The translations under genes and the position numbers were made by a program. From Hippea maritima DSM 10411 (GTDB lineage: Bacteria > Campylobacterota_A > Desulfurellia > Desulfurellales > Hippeaceae): a DNA stretch of 64,000 nucleotides. Numbering within the stretch: position 1 is the first letter of the stretch; every line of letters starts with the position of its first letter. Location: positions 1,561,001-1,625,000 of the forward strand of contig NC_015318.1 of assembly GCF_000194135.1 (NCBI RefSeq), in the 5' to 3' direction. This document shows positions 4,735 to 26,701 of the stretch, piece by piece. The notes beneath the pieces were generated by a model, which saw only the letters and a list, made by a program, of their open reading frames with translations, had not been told where the DNA came from and made no database searches.

Positions 4735-4774
4735 AAATCTTGAACTCCAGAAAATAACCTTTGCCTTTAATTAA

Positions 4775-5002
4775 CCCTCATTTTACACCTCTTTCTCCAT
4801 TTATACCATAAAACCCCATATAATTACTACCCAATAGTTCCAATATCAGCCTATGCTTGTTTTCCAACCCAACAATCTACTCTTGCCCATTAAGTAAGAG
4901 TAGATGTATAGCAAAGAAGTTCTCAAACACCCATCTTGCAGTGGGATTCTGAATGGGTTTGCCAAGTTGATTGGGAAAGGATTTGTTTTGATTTTTAAGC
5001 TC
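4775..5002. repeat. 228-bp repeat, partner at 17791-18018
   Basis: Near-identical direct repeat of the 3' end of the IS1634-type element. The partner is in the same orientation about 13 kb away, flanking the whole cobalamin island together with its IS remnants. Homologous recombination between the two copies would excise the segment 5.0-17.8 kb. Confidence 0.8.
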
Positions 5003-5074
5003 CCTCATTATAGCTTGTTTTCTGCCAAGTGCATCATCATTGAACCATGAGAAATCAACATCCCTTCCAAACAA
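4877..5074 (-). pseudogene. Remnant transposase reading frame inside the small IS1634 derivative
   Basis: 65 codons joining two distant parts of the IS1634 transposase: residues around the DDALGR motif, then KQAIMRE at the deletion joint, then the last ~45 residues ending LLLLNGQE, identical in reading to the C-terminus of the 17.9-kb copy. All catalytic residues are lost. It is not expected to be functional. Confidence 0.8.
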
Positions 5075-17692: not shown

Positions 17693-17790
17693 GTTAGTTT
17701 TCTCTCAAAGAAGGGTTATAACATATAGCTCTTCTCCCTTCAAAGGGTAGCACAAGCAATTTTACATTACCTAAAAAATAGGTTTTCTAT

Positions 17791-18312
17791 CCCTCATTCC
17801 GCACCTCTTTCTCCGTTTATACCATAAAATCCCATATAATTACTACCCAATAGTTCCAATATCAGCCTATGCTTGTTTTCCAACCCAACAATCTACTCTT
17901 GCCCATTAAGTAAGAGTAGATGTATAGCAAAGAAGTTCTCAAACACCCATCTTGCAGTGGGATTCTGAATGGGTTTGCCAAGTTGATTGGGAAAGGATTT
18001 GTTTTGATTTTTAAGCTCACTTCTTATTCTGTATTCCAAGGCAGAATAGACAAGCAAAGAGAGTGTCATTATCATAAGCATTGCTTCAATGCGTTTTGGG
18101 TTCTTTAGAAACATGGCATCGCTTAAAAACTCTGGTGATTTTAAGAACCTAAAGCCCCTTTCTATTCTCTGTTGAGATTTATACTCATCAAGCAGTTCCT
18201 TGGCAGACAGTGTCATATCATTGGTTGCAAGGATAAAAAGGCCACTCTTTTGGTTCTGTTTTTGTTTTAGGTATTCTTCATTTGTCATCCGCCGTGCTAA
18301 AATACACCGCAA
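17791..18312 (-). mobile_element. 3' part of an IS1634-type element, truncated
   Basis: The outer end CCCTCATTCCGCACC starts at 17791. The copy then runs through the C-terminal part of the transposase and breaks off near 18310 where a different IS remnant begins. It complements, but is not contiguous with, the N-terminal piece at 3.7-4.1 kb; roughly 200 or more middle codons are present in neither copy. Confidence 0.7.
17893..18309 (-). pseudogene. IS1634-type transposase, C-terminal fragment
   Basis: About 139 codons reading leftward. Contains the IS4-superfamily C-terminal signature around the catalytic Glu, YKSQQRIERGFRFLK (the Y-R-E-K pattern), then SDAMFLKNPKRIEAMLMIM and the C-terminal LLLLNGQE. 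The N-terminal half, with both catalytic Asp residues, is missing; the apparent first Met is fortuitous at the junction. Confidence 0.85.
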
Positions 18313-18319
18313 ACGTCTA

Positions 18320-18340
18320 CTAAAAGTGCACCACTTTTAG
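18320..18340. repeat. Palindrome at the left edge of the chimeric IS remnant
   Basis: CTAAAAGTG-CAC-CACTTTTAG: nine-base perfect arms around a 3-nt centre, immediately right of the truncated IS1634 copy and about 45 nt before the next transposase start. Likely part of the end of the IS21-type element, though it could act as a hairpin. Confidence 0.45.
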
Positions 18341-18386
18341 TAATTGTTTATACTCTCCTGGAATAATCTTTTTCAAGGAGAGTACT

Positions 18387-18737
18387 ATGATTAGCAAGGA
18401 GGAGTTTGTTGTGATTCACACACTGCATTCTCAAGGGTTGTCAATCAGACAGATATCAAAGATTCTTGGTCTAAACAGAAGAACGGTATCAAAAAGACTG
18501 AAAGAGGAGGATTTAAAACCGTATTCCAAAAGAAGCTACCCCTCAAAGCTTGATGGTTACAAAGATTATATAAGGACAAGGATTAATCAAGCCTATCCAG
18601 ATAGGATTCCTTCTACTGTCGTTTTAAGAGAGATAGCTGATATGGGATACACAGGGAGTCTAAGGACACTTCAGAAATACACAAAGACCATATTGTTAAA
18701 GAGGCAAAAAGCACAGGGTACAGATACAGGCTTCTAA
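18387..18737 (+). pseudogene. IstA-type transposase N-terminus, truncated and fused
   Basis: Starts with a helix-turn-helix (LSIRQISKILGLNRRTVSKRL) and the IstA-typical SKLDGYKDYIRTRI and MGYTGSLRTLQKY. After about residue 105 similarity to IstA ends, and the frame closes at 18737 over sequence that in another frame encodes a different transposase. No catalytic core remains. A good AAGGAG ribosome site precedes ATG 18387. Confidence 0.75.
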
Positions 18738-19606
18738 GCTATTACCTAAAGAACAAATACTCCATAGAGATAAGCGAAAACACAATAAAGAAGGTTTTAA
18801 AGAGAAACAGGGTGAGGAAAAAGAAAATAAGGACTCTAAACAAAAACAGAAGGCATCTTTATGATTATGAACACCTGACGCCCTTTAGCCACCTTCAGAT
18901 AGACACAAAACACATACTGTATGAAACATCTCTACCAAAGAGCGTGTATAGACACATAGAGAAATACGACCTGCCAAAATATGAATGGAACGCAATAGAT
19001 GTAAAAACGAGAATGAGATTTACAGCTTACTCCCATACTCTTTCTGCATCCTTTGGATTTGCTTTTATCCTTTTTGTCGTACTGTGGTTAAAGCTGCACA
19101 ATGTAAGGGGAAAAATAAACATAAGGTTGGACAACGGTTCTGAATTTGCATCCTCAAGCAGAAGAAAATTGGATGAATACAACGAATTCTTTTCAAAACT
19201 GAATGTAGAGTTAAAACCCATACCACCAGGTGCAAAACACCTCCAGGCTATAGTTGAAAACTCACACAGAAAAGACGATGAATCATTTTTCTCCATTCAT
19301 CCAGAAAGGTGCAGGAATGACGCTGAGTTCTTGCTCAAAGCTCAACAATGGCAGGATACATGGAATACAGCAAGACCTCACTATGGCATAGACATGAACG
19401 GCCTAACGCCTTTTGAGAAACTGAAATCAACAAAAGCTATGATATCTGAAAACATAGTAAGGTTTCCAACCTTACTACTGGAAGATATCATAAGGGTAGC
19501 AGGCTACCCTTATGAATGGTTGAGTAAGTTTGTGAACCTGTATATATTTAGTAGAGGTGGTAAGTATGTGTGGACCACTTACCTTTTTGCCCAATGCTTA
19601 ATTTAG
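18689..19606 (+). pseudogene. IS481/IS3-like DDE integrase-type transposase lacking its N-terminus
   Basis: The frame is open upstream of the GTG at 18812 and reads HIVKEAKSTGYRYRLLSYYL, a typical second HTH region, followed by the rve core: LQIDTKHI (Asp 1), IRLDNGSEFAS (Asp 2) and IVENSHRKDDESFF (Glu). The C-terminal ARPHYGIDMNGLTPFEKL is characteristic. The natural N-terminus is missing, replaced by the IstA fragment in another frame. The residual core is complete, but translation start is doubtful; GTG 18812 would begin inside the HTH region. Confidence 0.75.
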
Positions 19607-19678: not shown

Positions 19679-20629
19679 ATGAGAAAAAGCTTGGTTTTTT
19701 TACCACTCTTATTTTTTCTTATAAGCTGCCAGCCAAAAAAGCAAAACCCATGTAATATAAAAACAAACAACTTTAGCCTATCTAACAACACAATACTTCT
19801 TGAAACCAAAAATAACAAAAGCTGCAGAGGATTTAAAATAAAGCTAATCTACAACAAAGAAATCTTTACATTCTATGTTAATTTTGAACCAAAGATAGTG
19901 AACAATGCACCTCCTTATGGGTTTTCTGTAAAAATACCGAACAAGGATTACCTGTCTTTGGGTGTTGATGGAAATATATTTGAGAGAAATTTACCCGTTT
20001 ACCTAAGAAATGAAAGTAAAATAGAAATTTTAAAAGATTATGTGCTCGTCAGGTGGGTTATAAAACCAAAAGATATAAACAGGATATCAAAAATAGAGAT
20101 CGGGAATGTAATAATAAAGCACCCTTCAAATAAAGATTGCCAGCTCACATACAACGACTATCTAACAACACCAAGACAAAAACCCACTTTTTACCCATTT
20201 GACAAATTTTTAAACTTTTGTAAATCCAAATGGCTCATCGAAAGAAAAGATAAGCCATTTAGGGTAATATTTAGAGTCAGTGATGAAGATATAAAAGAAC
20301 TACAAAAAAGGGGTAACGTAGCTCTCTTGAGTTTTTTAGGTTTTGTAAAGCAAAAGACTCAGGCGTTTGGAGATAGGTGCAACATACACATACTGCTTTA
20401 CGATTCAAAGAACTACAAAAGGTTAAACCCGACAGGATTTAGATTTCATCTAAAAAAACTAAACAAAGAAGCCTACGAAATGAGTTTTGATGAGGAGAGC
20501 GTTGCTGTTGCAAGCGGTGGAGTGTATGTTATTAGGACAACATCGAGTGAGTATTGGGGAAAGAGTAGGATAATAATTTGCAAGAAAGGAGAATACTATG
20601 TGGCAATTTTGGTTAGAAGTAAAATTTAG
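19679..20629 (+). CDS. Unrecognised lipoprotein (316 aa), first gene of a secreted-protein cluster
   Basis: No family recognised. A lipoprotein signal peptide is clear: KSLVFLPLLFFLISC with the lipobox Cys at residue 17, so it should be lipid-anchored, probably at the outer membrane (residues after Cys are QPK, no Asp retention signal). The mature part is about 300 aa, beta-rich in appearance (alternating pattern such as FKIKLIYNKEIFTFYVNFEP), basic, with several Cys (NPCNI, KSCRGF, KDCQL, NFCKS, DRCNI, IICKK) that may form disulfides. An AGGA ribosome site precedes the ATG. It is followed after 90 nt by two large exported paralogues and a WSC/PAN protein in the same orientation, which suggests a common surface function. 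Confidence 0.75.
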   Translation: MRKSLVFLPLLFFLISCQPKKQNPCNIKTNNFSLSNNTILLETKNNKSCRGFKIKLIYNKEIFTFYVNFEPKIVNNAPPYGFSVKIPNKDYLSLGVDGNIFERNLPVYLRNESKIEILKDYVLVRWVIKPKDINRISKIEIGNVIIKHPSNKDCQLTYNDYLTTPRQKPTFYPFDKFLNFCKSKWLIERKDKPFRVIFRVSDEDIKELQKRGNVALLSFLGFVKQKTQAFGDRCNIHILLYDSKNYKRLNPTGFRFHLKKLNKEAYEMSFDEESVAVASGGVYVIRTTSSEYWGKSRIIICKKGEYYVAILVRSKI

Positions 20630-20719: not shown

Positions 20720-22819
20720 ATGAAAAGATATTTTATTTTAACATTTATATTCTTAGTCTCGCTTCTATCAATATCACACGCAGAGGACCTAAACAAAATA
20801 AAGGAAAAACTGAAAGTCACAAAACAAGACTTAAGTTTTACTCCATTTAAACTTTACAACTTTAATGATGTTATTGAAATAGTAAATCCATTCTGCCATT
20901 GGGGAAACAGTGTGCACTTATCGTTTAAGAGCGGTCCATATGCAGGAGCTTATGCTGGTGTTTTAAGAATCTATTATTGTGAAACCCCAGAAAATGCTAA
21001 AAAATTTTTTAATCAATTTACCGCAAAGTTTAAAGCCTTAAAAAACCGCACCGTGATTAAAAAAGGCAAAAAAATTTCAACAAGGTATATCTATAAATTC
21101 AAAAAAATCTCCAAAGACGGCTTTTTCTATCTTGAGAAGCTAATGATAGAGCAGGATTTCTACACATCAAGTAAACTTGCTACGGAATACAGACGGGAAA
21201 GTATTTCATACTTCAAAATTACCGGCAGCTATTTTTTTATGATCTCACTTTCAAAGCCGAATAAAGACAAGGGTTTCGTAAAAACTGCAGGAAATCAGCT
21301 CTATAATGTTATCCTAAAGAAATTGAGCGGTGAAAGCAAAAGCAGGAATCCTGAGGAAAACAGTGATGACTTTGAAGTTATAGTTTCTGCTGAATCTGAT
21401 GGTTTTAAACCCAGCGTCTTAGAGTATGATATAAAATACGGTATTTCAAAAAAAGGCCTGAACCCATCGTCTTTGAAAGAGGTAGCTTTAACAGGTAATA
21501 TCTTAAGCTCTAAGGAATTAAGCCCAATCCCAGGGGCAAATATCACAATAAAATTCAGAGGAAAAAGATACTCAGTTAAAAGCAATAATGAGGGAATCTA
21601 TAGAAAAATACTTAAAATTAATTCTAAAGGCACCAGAACCGCAACAATAAATTTAGACTTATACCTAACAGAAAAAGCTAAAAAAGTGGCAATCAAAGTT
21701 TCAACAAGTAAATTTGTTGCAAACGGGAGATACCAAAAACTTAAAATAAGAGTAATACAAGAAAATGGCAAACCCGCAGCCAATAAGGTATACTTTTTAA
21801 ACTACAGTGATTTTACTCACAATAACAAAAAAATACATTACATAACGCATCCAATTCTTTCAAAGACATTCAAAACAAACAAAAATGGTTTTGCAACTAT
21901 AATTATACCTACACCAAAGGTTATAAAAAGCAAACTAAACAATATCTCAGATTCAAAGAAATACTTCCCAATAACAGCTACTATGACTGTATCAAAAAGA
22001 GAGAAGTTAGGTACATTTGATATATATTTTGATAGCCCATTTCCTGAAATTGTAAAATTTCTCTTGCCCGGAGGGATGGATGCAGAGCACTGGCAAATCA
22101 TTCCATCAAAAATCTTCATAAAAGACTTAGATAGCAATACATTCAACATAAAACTCATGGGTTATGGCAGGTTCAAAACGAAAGGTGGCAAAATCTATAA
22201 AACCGTTTTCCATCAATACAGATATAAAGGCAATGAATTTGAGTTCTATTTTGCATCTGATAAACTTGGTCTGGATCTAAACAAACAACCACAAGTATGG
22301 AAAGATTTTGTCGATACGAATCTTAGAGTATTAATGAGCACTTTATTAACCTTGAATGAGGGTACATCGTTTGAGGAAATGAGAAAAATTAAAAAGGGGT
22401 GGCTATCAACTGTTTTAACAGATAAGGTAAGTTTTGAGAGAGTGTATGGAGGTTCTAAACTTGCCTTTGGTGCAAGAGAATACAAAAATTCGGCTCAAGC
22501 ATTTTTGAACAGTAAAAATAAAGATCGCGTATCAAGAACAGATATGGTTGTCGGTGGAGCTTTTATTGCAAATGACTTAGTGGCGCTCATAAGAAATAGC
22601 TCAAGTAAGCTTAAGCACAATCTACAGATGGAACTAATGAAAGCCATTTATGAGAATGCAAAAACAACTTACAATATTTATAAAAAATACAGAAAAATAG
22701 CAGATAGTTACAAGGACTTGTTTAAAATAAACATCTTTGTCAAGGTAACTGATATGGATGGATACTCAACAATCACAACAAAGCCAATCTTTGTTAAAGC
22801 GTGGCAAAGCATTGAGTAA
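20720..22819 (+). CDS. Large exported multi-domain protein, paralogue 1 (699 aa)
   Basis: No described family recognised. The signal peptide is KRYFILTFIFLVSLLSISHA (cleavage after about A21). An N-terminal module at residues 30-195 has a WGNS...GPYAGAYAGVLRIYYC pattern and CETPENAKKFF. At about 252-330 there is an Ig-like segment resembling carboxypeptidase-regulatory folds (SPIPGANITIKFRGKRYSVKS). At about 335-440 there is a second beta-sandwich (VIQENGKPAANKVYFL, TNKNGFATIIIP). A C-terminal domain at about 445-697 begins LLPGGMDAEHWQIIPSKIF and is shared with the next gene. A clean AAGGAGAACGGGG ribosome site precedes the ATG. Domain names are inference from sequence pattern; export is well supported. 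Confidence 0.75.
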   Translation: MKRYFILTFIFLVSLLSISHAEDLNKIKEKLKVTKQDLSFTPFKLYNFNDVIEIVNPFCHWGNSVHLSFKSGPYAGAYAGVLRIYYCETPENAKKFFNQFTAKFKALKNRTVIKKGKKISTRYIYKFKKISKDGFFYLEKLMIEQDFYTSSKLATEYRRESISYFKITGSYFFMISLSKPNKDKGFVKTAGNQLYNVILKKLSGESKSRNPEENSDDFEVIVSAESDGFKPSVLEYDIKYGISKKGLNPSSLKEVALTGNILSSKELSPIPGANITIKFRGKRYSVKSNNEGIYRKILKINSKGTRTATINLDLYLTEKAKKVAIKVSTSKFVANGRYQKLKIRVIQENGKPAANKVYFLNYSDFTHNNKKIHYITHPILSKTFKTNKNGFATIIIPTPKVIKSKLNNISDSKKYFPITATMTVSKREKLGTFDIYFDSPFPEIVKFLLPGGMDAEHWQIIPSKIFIKDLDSNTFNIKLMGYGRFKTKGGKIYKTVFHQYRYKGNEFEFYFASDKLGLDLNKQPQVWKDFVDTNLRVLMSTLLTLNEGTSFEEMRKIKKGWLSTVLTDKVSFERVYGGSKLAFGAREYKNSAQAFLNSKNKDRVSRTDMVVGGAFIANDLVALIRNSSSKLKHNLQMELMKAIYENAKTTYNIYKKYRKIADSYKDLFKINIFVKVTDMDGYSTITTKPIFVKAWQSIE

Positions 22820-22838
22820 GAGAAGGGATAATACTGTT

Positions 22839-24779
22839 ATGCGGTTATTCTATCTAAGAACTATATTTAGGTTCATGGTTTTTATTGTAATTTTACCTGC
22901 AATGGCAAAGGCATACTGTAGTTTACCTCAGATAAAAAATATCTTTCCAACAACAAAAGAGGTCGGGGATGTGATAGAACAAGCAAGGTACGATTCTGGC
23001 CCATACAATAGTAAAGACGGATCAATCACATACTCAAGAACCTGGCGGGGAGGGCCAGGTGGATATAGAGATTTAACGATACGCCTTTATATATATCCAA
23101 AGCCAAATCTTGCACGACTCAAGGTAGAAAAATACTGTAAATCATTGGGTTCTCGAAAGATAACTCTACCATATGCAGATATTGGTTGCACAGCAAAGCG
23201 TAGGTATAACTTTAGAAGGTACTATATGCTTGCGGAGAAATGCGCCGTAATTGTACTGTGGACTGACTACCCAGATCGTAGGCTTGTAGATCCGCAAGAT
23301 TATCTGTTAAAACCCATGGTGGAAAGAATTAAAAAGCTAAATTGTCTGTGCTCTACCTCGCAACAAAATACATCTGCAAACCGCACAGCAACATACAAAG
23401 TAAGTGCAAGCAAAAAGGGATTTTTAAATGATTGGGATAAAAGGGAGATAAACATAGATACAACAAAACGGCTAATAGTTTGGGGCACTGTGTACGATAA
23501 CAAGGGCAAGGAGTTACCATCAGCTATTGTAACATTTAAAATTTTGGGTAAAACATTCACAAAAAAGAGCGACTCTAACGGTTATTTTGAATTTGACTTA
23601 ACCATCAACCCCAAAGGAAATAAAACATTAAAGTTTAACGAAGATTTGCATCTAAAGAAGCCACTTCCACATCTTACAGCTCAGGTTTTATCCAAAACAC
23701 TTGCTGCAGATGGTAGAATACAAAATGTAAAGGTTAGACTTACAAGCGATAAAGGCGTTGTGAGAAATAAAAAACTCTACATATCAACCGATAACATGCC
23801 ACTGCTACACAACGGCAGAATAGTAAATTACGCCAAGTTCTCATACGACTCAAAATACATCACAACGGATTCTAACGGCGTGGCAACATTCAAAGTTAAA
23901 TCACCAAAGTTAGATGTAAACCTTGTTAATCGTTCAAACGATAAAGCGCTATTTCCTATAATCTCAAGATATACCGTTTACTCACTTGAAAATGGCAAAA
24001 AGGAAAAGGTTGGATTTATAAAGCTCTCATTTTTATCTCCAAAGCCACACATAACAAAGGTATTGCTTCCCGGTGGTGTAGAAGAACAACTATGGCAAAG
24101 TATGCCTTCAAGAGTGTTTATTGAAGACATTGATAGCAACCACTTTAGCATACTGATTCGTGGCTGGGGACGCTTCAAGAGCAAGGGTAGCAGTATTAGA
24201 TATAACACACTCATACGTCAATTTGACGGCAAAGAGTTCGATTTCTATTTTAGTCCCAGAAAGATAGGTTTCGATCTAAACGATCAACCGCAACTGTGGA
24301 AAGACCTTTTGACTACAAACCTAAATGTCTTGGGTAGCATATTCATACCATTGGCTCAGAATGGCAAGCTGCCACTAAAATACCCTGCAAGCGATGAGTT
24401 TAAGTCTCTCATAGACTCATACGTAATCCAGTTTGGCACAAAGGACTATGTGAATCTAATAAAACAAGCGCATAACAGCCCATCTCTCACAAATATAACA
24501 GACGGTGCAGTAGGTGGCGCTCTATTAGGCGATGCTATAAATAACCTGTTAAGCGGCAAAAACATCCCTCTTGGTCAAACAATGCAATTGGAGGTGTTGA
24601 AGGCCGTATATGCCAATTTGACAACGATATACAAAGCTTACGCCAAATATGGAAAGATAGCACGTGCATATCAGGATATAGATTTCTTGCCCATAATTGT
24701 AATCATAACAGACAGTGATGGCTATAAAGATAGATATCTACGTTATATTTCTGTAAAAATTTGGAAGGAAGGAGAGTAG
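22839..24779 (+). CDS. Large exported multi-domain protein, paralogue 2 (646 aa)
   Basis: Tandem paralogue of the preceding protein with the same module order. Start chosen at ATG 22839 ([10 protein letters not shown]), which gives a signal peptide ending near AMAKA, with AAGGGA upstream; the frame extends to 22758 inside the previous gene. The N-terminal module (about 25-170) has [11 protein letters not shown] and several Cys. The Ig-like segment (about 212-290) has [15 protein letters not shown] and [11 protein letters not shown] second sandwich carries [12 protein letters not shown]. The C-terminal domain (about 407-645) has [64 protein letters not shown] and a glycine-rich [17 protein letters not shown] helix that parallels DMVVGGAFIANDLVAL in paralogue 1. 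Function unknown. Confidence 0.75.
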
Positions 24780-24781
24780 AG

Positions 24782-26701
24782 ATGAAAAAAATGTTTATTG
24801 TTTTTTTATTGGTTTTGCTCATACCAATCAGAGCTTACACTGACGTAATAAGTAACTACTTCAACTTTGTTCAGAATAAAAATCTGTCAGGAATAAAACA
24901 ATTACTTTACAACCCAACGCCAGATCGGTTGAAGGTTTACAAAGTGGTATTTGCAGCAGTTAACCAAAGGGTCAACAGTGTAAGAATCAAAAAAACACAA
25001 GTATTTGGAGATAAAGCAATAGTAACGGTGCATGCAAACGTAACGATCTACAATAGATTCAACAAGCGGAGTTTTAACGAGGATAATGACTTGGTCTTCC
25101 TGCTCCAAAAACAGTCTAACAAATGGAAAATAGCGAAAGTAATGCCGCTTGCAGACTTTATACTCAAAAAGAAACTATTAATCGTAAAAAATGCTTTGGA
25201 TAAGATGTCTAATACAAATAAAAATCAAGGAAACAAACAATCAGTAATTTACAACACGGCAGAAGGAGGTGAGAACTTCCTAAACAACAATAAAAATAAT
25301 AATCCATACAAACCAAATAACAACTACACCTATTTAGGCTGCTTCAAAGACCAGGGCGACCCGTTTGGTCTAAGGGGCAGGGATTTGGCTGCATTTGGAT
25401 TCAGAAGCGATAGAATGACACCTAACCTGTGCATGAGGGAGTGTGCAAGAAGAGGCTATAGGTATGCAGGTGTGCAATACAGCGGCTATTGTTTCTGTGG
25501 CAATAGGTACGCAAGATTTGGACGGGCTACAAACTGTAATATGAGATGCACAGGCGACAGTAATAAAATCTGTGGCGGAAGCTGGGCAAATGATGTTTAC
25601 GATGTGTCAGGCCCGAATGTCCCAAGGCTTTATTATAGTAGTGGAGTTGAGCCAAATACCGATAGACCTGGATCTGACTATAAAAACTTCAATCTCCCCT
25701 ATCCGGACTATAGGCTCTGTCAAAACGCTTGCAATAAAGACCCACAGTGTAAGGCATGGACGTATGTAAAACCATACACAATCCAAGGGGCTTATGCCAG
25801 ATGCTGGCTTAAAAACGCCATACCAAATCCAGTCAAAAGAAATTGTTGTATATCTGGCATAAAACACAACACTGCAGAGACTACAAAAACATTTAAATAT
25901 CCAAAGATAAACGGATATAGGCTTGATTGGTGTAGATTATGGGCTCAAGATTGCGGCAAAGGTGCTGCAGATGAATTCTGTAAGAAAATGGGGTTTAAAA
26001 GGGCAATATCATTTGAAGAAGACTACGACATTGGTGCAAAATCCCCTACATATGTGATTGACGACGGTAAAATTTGCAATCAGGGTTTTTGCGATGGGTT
26101 TAGATATATAACATGTGCCGGGAAAAACCAGACTGCAAAGACAACTATAAAAAATAAAGCAAACACTCAAAATAGAGCTACAACATCAATAAATTGCAAA
26201 GATGCTTATAGAGAATTTGTAAAATCTTATAATAGGGTTGTTGGGCTAATGAGCGCAGGTAAATCCAATACGCCTGAGGCCAAAAGTGCATATGCTGAAT
26301 ATAAAATAGCCCGAGAGAAATACTATTCATGTAAAAATAAAAAAAACAACCAGACTCCACACTATAGCATAGACAAATGTGCTGTATATCAGGATAAACA
26401 GGATTATATATCAATGCGCTACCCAGAATACCTGAGTGCCAAAAAGCACTATGTAAACCTAACATGCTCGGTTTATATGTTGCCAAAGGGTAGCAGAATT
26501 AAAGCAGAATGGTACTATGTTACACCAAACCAGGATTACCTAATAGGACAAAAAACCGTTACAGTTAATAGAACCTCACCAAAAGATAAATATGTTAATT
26601 TTAGAATTGAAAACAACAAAGAATGGCCGGCTGGTTTGTATAGAGTGAGAATAATGCTAAATGGCAAAGAGATTGATGTAATTTCATTCAAAGTTAGATA
26701 A
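24782..26701 (+). CDS. Exported protein with NTF2-like, WSC, PAN/Apple-like and Cys-rich domains (639 aa)
   Basis: Signal peptide [19 protein letters not shown], start ATG 24782 with AGGAGAG upstream. Residues about 22-125 look like an NTF2/SnoaL-like domain (tentative). A low-complexity Asn/Lys linker follows (about 140-182). Residues 184-275 are a WSC domain with all eight cysteines: [42 protein letters not shown] and KICGGSW. About 283-363 resembles a PAN/Apple domain ([32 protein letters not shown]). About 378-446 is another Cys module ([30 protein letters not shown]). About 530-639 is an Ig-like C-terminal domain ([15 protein letters not shown]). WSC and PAN modules bind carbohydrate or protein, so a surface adhesin or glycan-binding role is likely. 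WSC is well supported, PAN less so. Confidence 0.85.

Follow-up and report, generated by a model that had tools for sequence, protein, structure and literature searches.

Organization of the locus

The window analysed here is a 64,000-nucleotide stretch of the genome of Hippea maritima DSM 10411 (contig NC_015318.1, positions 1,561,001 to 1,625,000). H. maritima MH2T is a thermophile that reduces sulfur and lives at submarine vents (PMC3156395), and NCBI taxonomy places the species in the Campylobacterota, class Desulfurellia. The gene under study (the WSC gene, gene 4) was intact, with an ATG at 24782, a stop codon at 26699-26701 and 639 residues between them. It was the last gene of an operon in which the genes at 20720-22819, 22758-24779 and 24782-26701 overlap or abut, and a lipoprotein gene ended 91 bases upstream of the gene at 20720. 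A scan for promoters and terminators gave nothing above chance. The features, in window positions, were as follows.

17893-19606, no strand assigned: insertion-sequence debris (IS1634-, IS21- and IS481-like fragments, NCBIfam)
19679-20629, plus strand: lipoprotein gene (gene 2) with lipobox LISC; 36-37% identical to the lipoprotein of locus L075, which has the same operon order, in the Campylobacterota
20720-22819, plus strand: partner paralogue (gene 3', 699 aa), 35% identical to the product of the gene at 22758
22758-24779, plus strand: partner gene (gene 3), encoding an Ig-like/CarboxypepD_reg-like exported protein; its body is horizontally shared, by identity to T. dismutans and genome G683
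23377-25865, plus strand: DNA in common with Thermosulfurimonas dismutans (2495 alignment columns, 74.6% identical)
24782-26701, plus strand: WSC gene (gene 4), for an exported modular protein of 639 aa (ORF call, Pfam)
24782-24838, plus strand: Sec-type signal sequence (about residues 1-19), most hydrophobic at residue 5, no lipobox
24845-25216, plus strand: probable NTF2-like N-terminal module, about residues 22-145 (conserved module, low-confidence model, weak Foldseek matches)
25331-25579, plus strand: WSC domain with eight Cys, residues 184-266 (Pfam PF01822; Kremen and fungal structures by sequence)
25658-25813, plus strand: PAN_4 domain, residues 293-344 (Pfam PF14295)
25886-26125, plus strand: third Cys-rich module, M3, about residues 369-448, with six invariant Cys and no Pfam family
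26195-26347, plus strand: helical hairpin module, about residues 472-522 (helices in the model; a copy placed elsewhere in the G004 protein)
26363-26698, plus strand: probable Ig-like C-terminal module, about residues 528-639 (seven strands in the model, weak Ig-fold matches)

The initial annotation had described the WSC gene product as exported, and the hydrophobic N-terminal segment, of which 18 residues were also read by eye as signal sequence, supported that claim. No hydrophobic segment of membrane strength was found after residue 60 in the hydrophobicity profile. The protein contained 24 Cys. Besides WSC and PAN_4, the Pfam search of the protein returned no other notable match, and none for the NTF2-like N-terminus or the Ig-like C-terminus. 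Taken together, the sequence analysis showed a predicted exported protein with a Cys-rich WSC-PAN_4-M3 middle between conserved N- and C-terminal modules, co-encoded with a lipoprotein and one or more Ig-rich partners.

The Cys-rich middle

WSC domains are usually treated as a speciality of fungi and animals, and in solved WSC domains eight Cys form four disulfides and a long L5 loop wraps a PAN/Apple-like fold. PF01822 matched the H. maritima protein over the full model (positions 1-82) with an E of 9.1e-19 and 67.9 bits, far over the cut-off of 27.8, and all eight Cys were present (187, 217, 221, 237, 239, 252, 256 and 264). The WSC assignment of the initial annotation therefore held, although the end that it gave (residue 275) was slightly long compared with residue 266. 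PF14295 matched with an E of 6.9e-18 and 64.9 bits against a cut-off of 27 (model positions 1-51), bearing out the PAN/Apple-like module. By these scores, neither match is expected by chance.

The Cys of yeast Wsc1 lie at 27, 49, 53, 69, 71, 86, 90 and 98, and its spacings of 4, 2, 4 and 8 (C49-53, 69-71, 86-90 and 90-98) were identical in the H. maritima domain (PMC9024836). Because the Cys spacing equals that of Wsc1, the disulfides are predicted to join 187-252, 217-237, 221-239 and 256-264. The nearest solved structures by sequence were 9N3U, a Fusarium aldehyde oxidase of fungal family AA5_1 (PMC13094651), Kremen-1, and the yeast Wsc1 domain 7pz2 (PMC9024836). A profile built from bacterial WSC copies matched human Kremen with an E of 2.6e-16, and Foldseek on the low-confidence model of the H. 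maritima protein matched Kremen 5fwt at 34% identity with a weak E of 7.9e-3. The likeness to the PF01822 family (Wsc1, Kremen, 9N3U) thus extends to the profile, the eight-Cys spacing and the GYRYAGV/CFCGN/CGG landmarks. Unlike these proteins, the H. maritima protein has no transmembrane sensor architecture and no oxidase, Kringle or CUB partner, and it alone has the bacterial operon setting with PAN_4, M3 and Ig/NTF2-like ends.

M3 was below cut-off for every Pfam family, and assignment to the YecR-like lipoproteins (PF13992) was rejected since the isolated module reached 18 bits against a cut-off of 27. Its Cys at 384, 391, 400, 432, 437 and 445 were invariant in all 7 aligned copies, the module stood in tandem within another Hippea protein, and it was present in 3 of about 265 genomes outside the phylum, indicating that M3 is a real domain, as had been proposed for a third Cys-rich module. 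The resemblance to bacterial PAN_4 proteins lies in the PAN_4 match over cut-off, and PAN_4 adjoining M3 was also found in G192 (L076), outside the phylum. The WSC-PAN_4 fusion was found, in the searches made, only in Hippea and its relatives, Thermosulfurimonas, Thermodesulfatator and one Helicobacteraceae MAG.

The end modules

The AlphaFold model of the full-length protein was of low confidence (mean pLDDT 47.8). In this model the N-terminal module consisted of helices followed by four strands, and its Foldseek matches to ARC6, ketosteroid isomerase and the CaMKII hub were weak (E about 2e-3 to 9e-3). The best match of an N-terminal profile to the PDB was a designed cortisol-binding protein (E 0.07), and hhalign of the N-terminus to the NTF2 domains of the linked gene 1 gave 3.7%. 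The C-terminal module was modelled as a seven-strand sandwich, also at low confidence, with weak Foldseek matches to Ig folds including Leptospira 6oe6; its profile had no significant match in the PDB. The Ig-like module was common to H. maritima and a Campylobacterota protein. Residues 583-638 weakly resembled LIC_12238, a plasminogen-binding lipoprotein (NF047559); membership of that family was rejected at 13.1 bits against a cut-off of 170. Judged from this model and the weak structural matches, the ends are likely NTF2-like and Ig-like. Of the architecture given by the initial annotation, the WSC, PAN and third Cys-rich modules were therefore confirmed, and the two ends stand as weak fold matches.

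Operon and partner genes

The partner body (about residues 205-673) was 76% identical to its T. dismutans counterpart and 60% to that of Campylobacterota genome G683. Residues 205-426 of the partner were modelled confidently by AlphaFold, the sole confident part across both models, and the Ig-rich protein had weak fold matches to the S-layer protein SbsC, the biofilm scaffold RbmA and macroglobulins. The order of partner then WSC gene was also found in G001, G006, G011, G014, T. dismutans and G683, and in T. dismutans the two genes overlap like the H. maritima pair. In G683 the order was a tandem NTF2-like membrane protein, a lipoprotein with 36-37% identity to that of H. maritima, the partner and an NTF2-like-WSC-X-Ig protein. 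Hippea G008 had the same first two genes in the same order, and a 1282-aa helical protein, with no NCBIfam family, replaced the partner before the WSC gene; its first gene was over cut-off for the DUF4864 and DUF4878 models.

No description of this operon was found in the open-access literature. WSC and PAN_4 are known domains and, as judged from that literature, the mobile operon is undescribed. The earlier view that the architecture is not covered by standard annotation thus applies to M3 and the neighbouring genes, and not to WSC and PAN_4, which are standard Pfam domains.

In G003, a MAG, a lipoprotein gene (L104, C138:22160-23085) was seemingly broken by in-frame stops and adjoined a partial partner-like gene.

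Distribution and horizontal transfer

Among the 25 genomes of the H. maritima phylum set in the genome collection, WSC was present in all 9 Hippea genomes and in 2 of the 3 from a neighbouring genus, and the 13 others lacked it; the cassette was absent from the sister family. None of about 361 further sampled bacterial genomes outside the phylum carried WSC, in keeping with a domain that is unusual in bacteria. Within the phylum of T. dismutans, 1 of 198 genomes was positive (T. dismutans itself), as were 2 of 298 in the phylum of the Helicobacteraceae MAG. When 84,980 species genomes were scanned with a WSC-PAN-M3 profile, a scan whose reach is limited by its seed patterns, matches were found in Desulfurellales, Thermosulfurimonas dismutans, Thermodesulfatator autotrophicus and a Helicobacteraceae MAG, together with a single PAN_4 protein from a gammaproteobacterium and a single WSC protein from a deltaproteobacterium.

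The stretch shared with T. dismutans, about 2.5 kb, ran continuously from the partner gene into the WSC gene, of which it covered codons 1-362, and the WSC protein had 76% identity to T. dismutans over residues 1-364. H. maritima and T. dismutans belong to different phyla, and their RpoB proteins were 50% identical. Within Hippea, RpoB was 82-84% identical, distant WSC-PAN blocks were 47-62% identical and most other partner copies about 35%. The T. dismutans pair had a GC3 of 0.36-0.42 against a GC of 0.53 at the RpoB locus of that genome, which fits a low-GC donor. The T. dismutans cassette (L035:2656-10624) lay between two identical 379-base inverted IS481-family copies, one truncated and one intact. 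An AU test on the WSC-PAN tree, in which most branches are weak and some rows long, rejected a single Desulfurellales clade (p 0.016). The examined Hippea cassette loci adjoined unrelated genes (glnA, clpB, flgI, an agmatinase gene and pckA). MAG contamination cannot explain the result because the isolates H. maritima MH2T, T. dismutans S95 and T. autotrophicus S606 carry the shared modules. These sequence comparisons showed that the unit of partner and WSC genes has passed from phylum to phylum among vent bacteria.

A phage or plasmid origin was rejected, as no relatives were found in viral contigs or plasmids and there was no useful PHROG. A defence system was likewise rejected, PADLOC giving just a stray 14-bit Cas8a match.

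Module shuffling

The shared DNA began with residue 207 of the partner, at the start of its confidently modelled Ig-like region, and ended with residue 362 of the WSC protein, where the PAN_4 module finishes. Downstream of the shared part, Hippea had M3-hairpin-Ig and T. dismutans WSC-X-Ig. The partner N-terminus was an 'N2' module in T. dismutans and G683 and differed in Hippea, where the WSC protein of G008 itself opened with the N2 module. In G001 and G008, M3-hairpin-Ig was replaced by a different C-terminal module. The NTF2/Ig frame held WSC-PAN-M3, WSC-PAN-WSC-X, WSC-X or nothing in related loci, the last in a second locus of G001, where the partner was followed by a 286-aa protein with the two end modules alone and no Cys-rich middle. 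The Cys-rich middle is therefore a replaceable insert. The differences have the pattern left by exchange at domain borders, and at the sequence level they show that the middle modules were swapped there.

Further arrangements were seen at related loci. A third downstream gene in Thermosulfurimonas and Thermodesulfatator (L035:8336-9559 and L036:10048-11280, 74% identical to each other) encoded two Ig-like modules and an NTF2-like C-terminus, and in the Helicobacteraceae MAG three WSC domains and a PAN_4 were attached directly to this Ig pair. In Hippea G004 (L016:3465-8000), WSC-PAN-M3 stood at the tail of a protein that is 1511 aa or longer and looks helical over a long N-terminal part; the 1282-aa gene of G008 lies at L078:1198-5046. 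An aromatic-rich module of about 210 aa followed the last WSC in the L035, L036 and L075 proteins (two Thermodesulfobacteriota, one Campylobacterota); its assignment as a concanavalin-like lectin was rejected, with no Pfam and no convincing PDB support.

Possible function

The best explanation, to which we give a probability of about 0.5, is that the WSC protein is the ligand-binding member of an exported surface complex for adhesion or matrix binding, horizontally exchanged and shuffled in its modules. The lipoprotein and the Ig-rich partner would hold the protein at the outer surface, the NTF2-like and Ig-like ends would serve as fixed parts of the assembly, and the disulfide-stapled WSC, PAN_4 and M3 modules would bind a ligand outside the cell, for which a polysaccharide from a biofilm matrix or from another cell is the likeliest candidate. 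Swapping of modules may then change what is bound, as in variable adhesins or scaffold proteins. The module types of the WSC protein and its neighbours are binding or structural, and the exported Ig-like partner with its weak fold matches recalls variable adhesins and Ig-rich scaffolds such as RbmA and SbsC. There is, however, no sequence homology to RbmA or SbsC, and the H. maritima type differs as a two- to four-gene operon with modules shuffled across phyla. Also against this explanation, the WSC protein itself has no surface anchor, the lipoprotein and tandem-NTF2 genes are not always beside gene 4, and the disulfides and end domains are predictions from sequence and a low-confidence model.

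Known WSC proteins give mixed guidance on the ligand. Some fungal WSC proteins bind beta-glucan or chitin, and single WSC domains failed to show binding (PMC9024836, PMC13094651). SiWsc3 of Serendipita indica, a lectin with three WSC domains, binds beta-1,3-glucan (PMC9024836); the Fusarium and Colletotrichum oxidases FgrAldOx and CgrAldOx, which have a single WSC, showed no binding to any of six polysaccharides (PMC13094651), and Wsc1 has no obvious glycan pocket (PMC9024836), which counts against glycan binding. SiWsc3 is similar in being secreted and in its WSC number, as vent relatives carry multiple copies (three in L037), but the H. maritima protein has a single WSC, and its binding of a glycan is a prediction. 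The surface glycan- or matrix-binding role suggested by the initial annotation is therefore best kept as plausible.

More tentatively, the loci may belong to a mobile 'interchangeable surface module' system in which a conserved core, formed by the tandem NTF2-like membrane protein and the lipoprotein, displays an exported pair with fixed ends and exchanged Cys-rich middles. Those middles (WSC, PAN_4, M3 and others) would be exchanged between phyla by IS-assisted transfer and recombination at module boundaries, altering what the cell attaches to or what recognises it.

Other explanations were weighed against the adhesin-like complex. It is possible, if doubtful, that the WSC protein and the Ig-rich partner form a scaffold internal to the envelope, a periplasmic or S-layer-like layer binding the cell's own envelope polysaccharide; the fold matches of the partner, the lipoprotein in the operon and retention in all 9 sampled genomes of the genus would suit such a layer. 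A core layer is expected to be inherited vertically, fixed in place and constant in its modules, whereas this cassette was transferred, relocated and re-cut, and the sister family lacks it. The polymorphic architecture, with a variable middle, variable partner N-termini and horizontal spread, also recalls a secreted effector or toxin of an interbacterial system whose interchangeable modules act on neighbouring cells. This we consider improbable, since Pfam, NCBIfam and PADLOC found no toxin, nuclease, protease, other catalytic or defence family in the window proteins, no immunity-like small gene was present, and the variable parts are disulfide-rich binding modules.

Two readings follow from the relatives of the WSC domain. 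Wsc1, Kremen and the WSC domains of fungal oxidases are its closest structural relatives, which would agree with an extracellular sensor of surface stress like the fungal Wsc sensors. Those sensors have a single-pass anchor and a cytoplasmic tail; the H. maritima protein has neither a transmembrane segment after the signal sequence nor such a tail, and no kinase or regulator was linked among the operon ORFs, so that a sensor is strongly disfavoured. The eukaryotic fame of the domain and the Kremen match of the bacterial profile could likewise reflect a recent acquisition of WSC from a eukaryote followed by ordinary drift. This is unlikely: the divergence of bacterial copies from the H. maritima copy already amounts to 40-55%, WSC occurs in at least two bacterial phyla and a groundwater deltaproteobacterium, and the recent transfer that was seen is from bacterium to bacterium.

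Every sampled genome of one bacterial genus carries WSC, and its operon has crossed between phyla at 75% DNA identity. Most of the interest lies in this operon, in its horizontal mobility and in the shuffling of modules, none of which the initial annotation had noted. The cut points offer an immediate handle on the shuffling of bacterial surface proteins. If the modules bind sugars of a matrix or cell surface, nature would offer in them a collection of binding domains that are thermostable and stapled by disulfides, and the same surface-binding parts would be common to vent bacteria from different phyla.

Insertion-sequence remnants

With its flanking inverted IS481 pieces, the T. dismutans cassette was composite-element-like. 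In H. maritima, the insertion-sequence debris lay directly upstream of the lipoprotein gene, and the tandem NTF2-like gene of G683 and G008 was absent among the ORFs at 17893-19606. The upstream transposases were rejected as the mobilising element, being fragments with no tblastn match to the T. dismutans IS. Two 240-base copies, at 4772-5011 and 17788-18027, were 96% identical, and the second overlapped the IS1634-like remnant.
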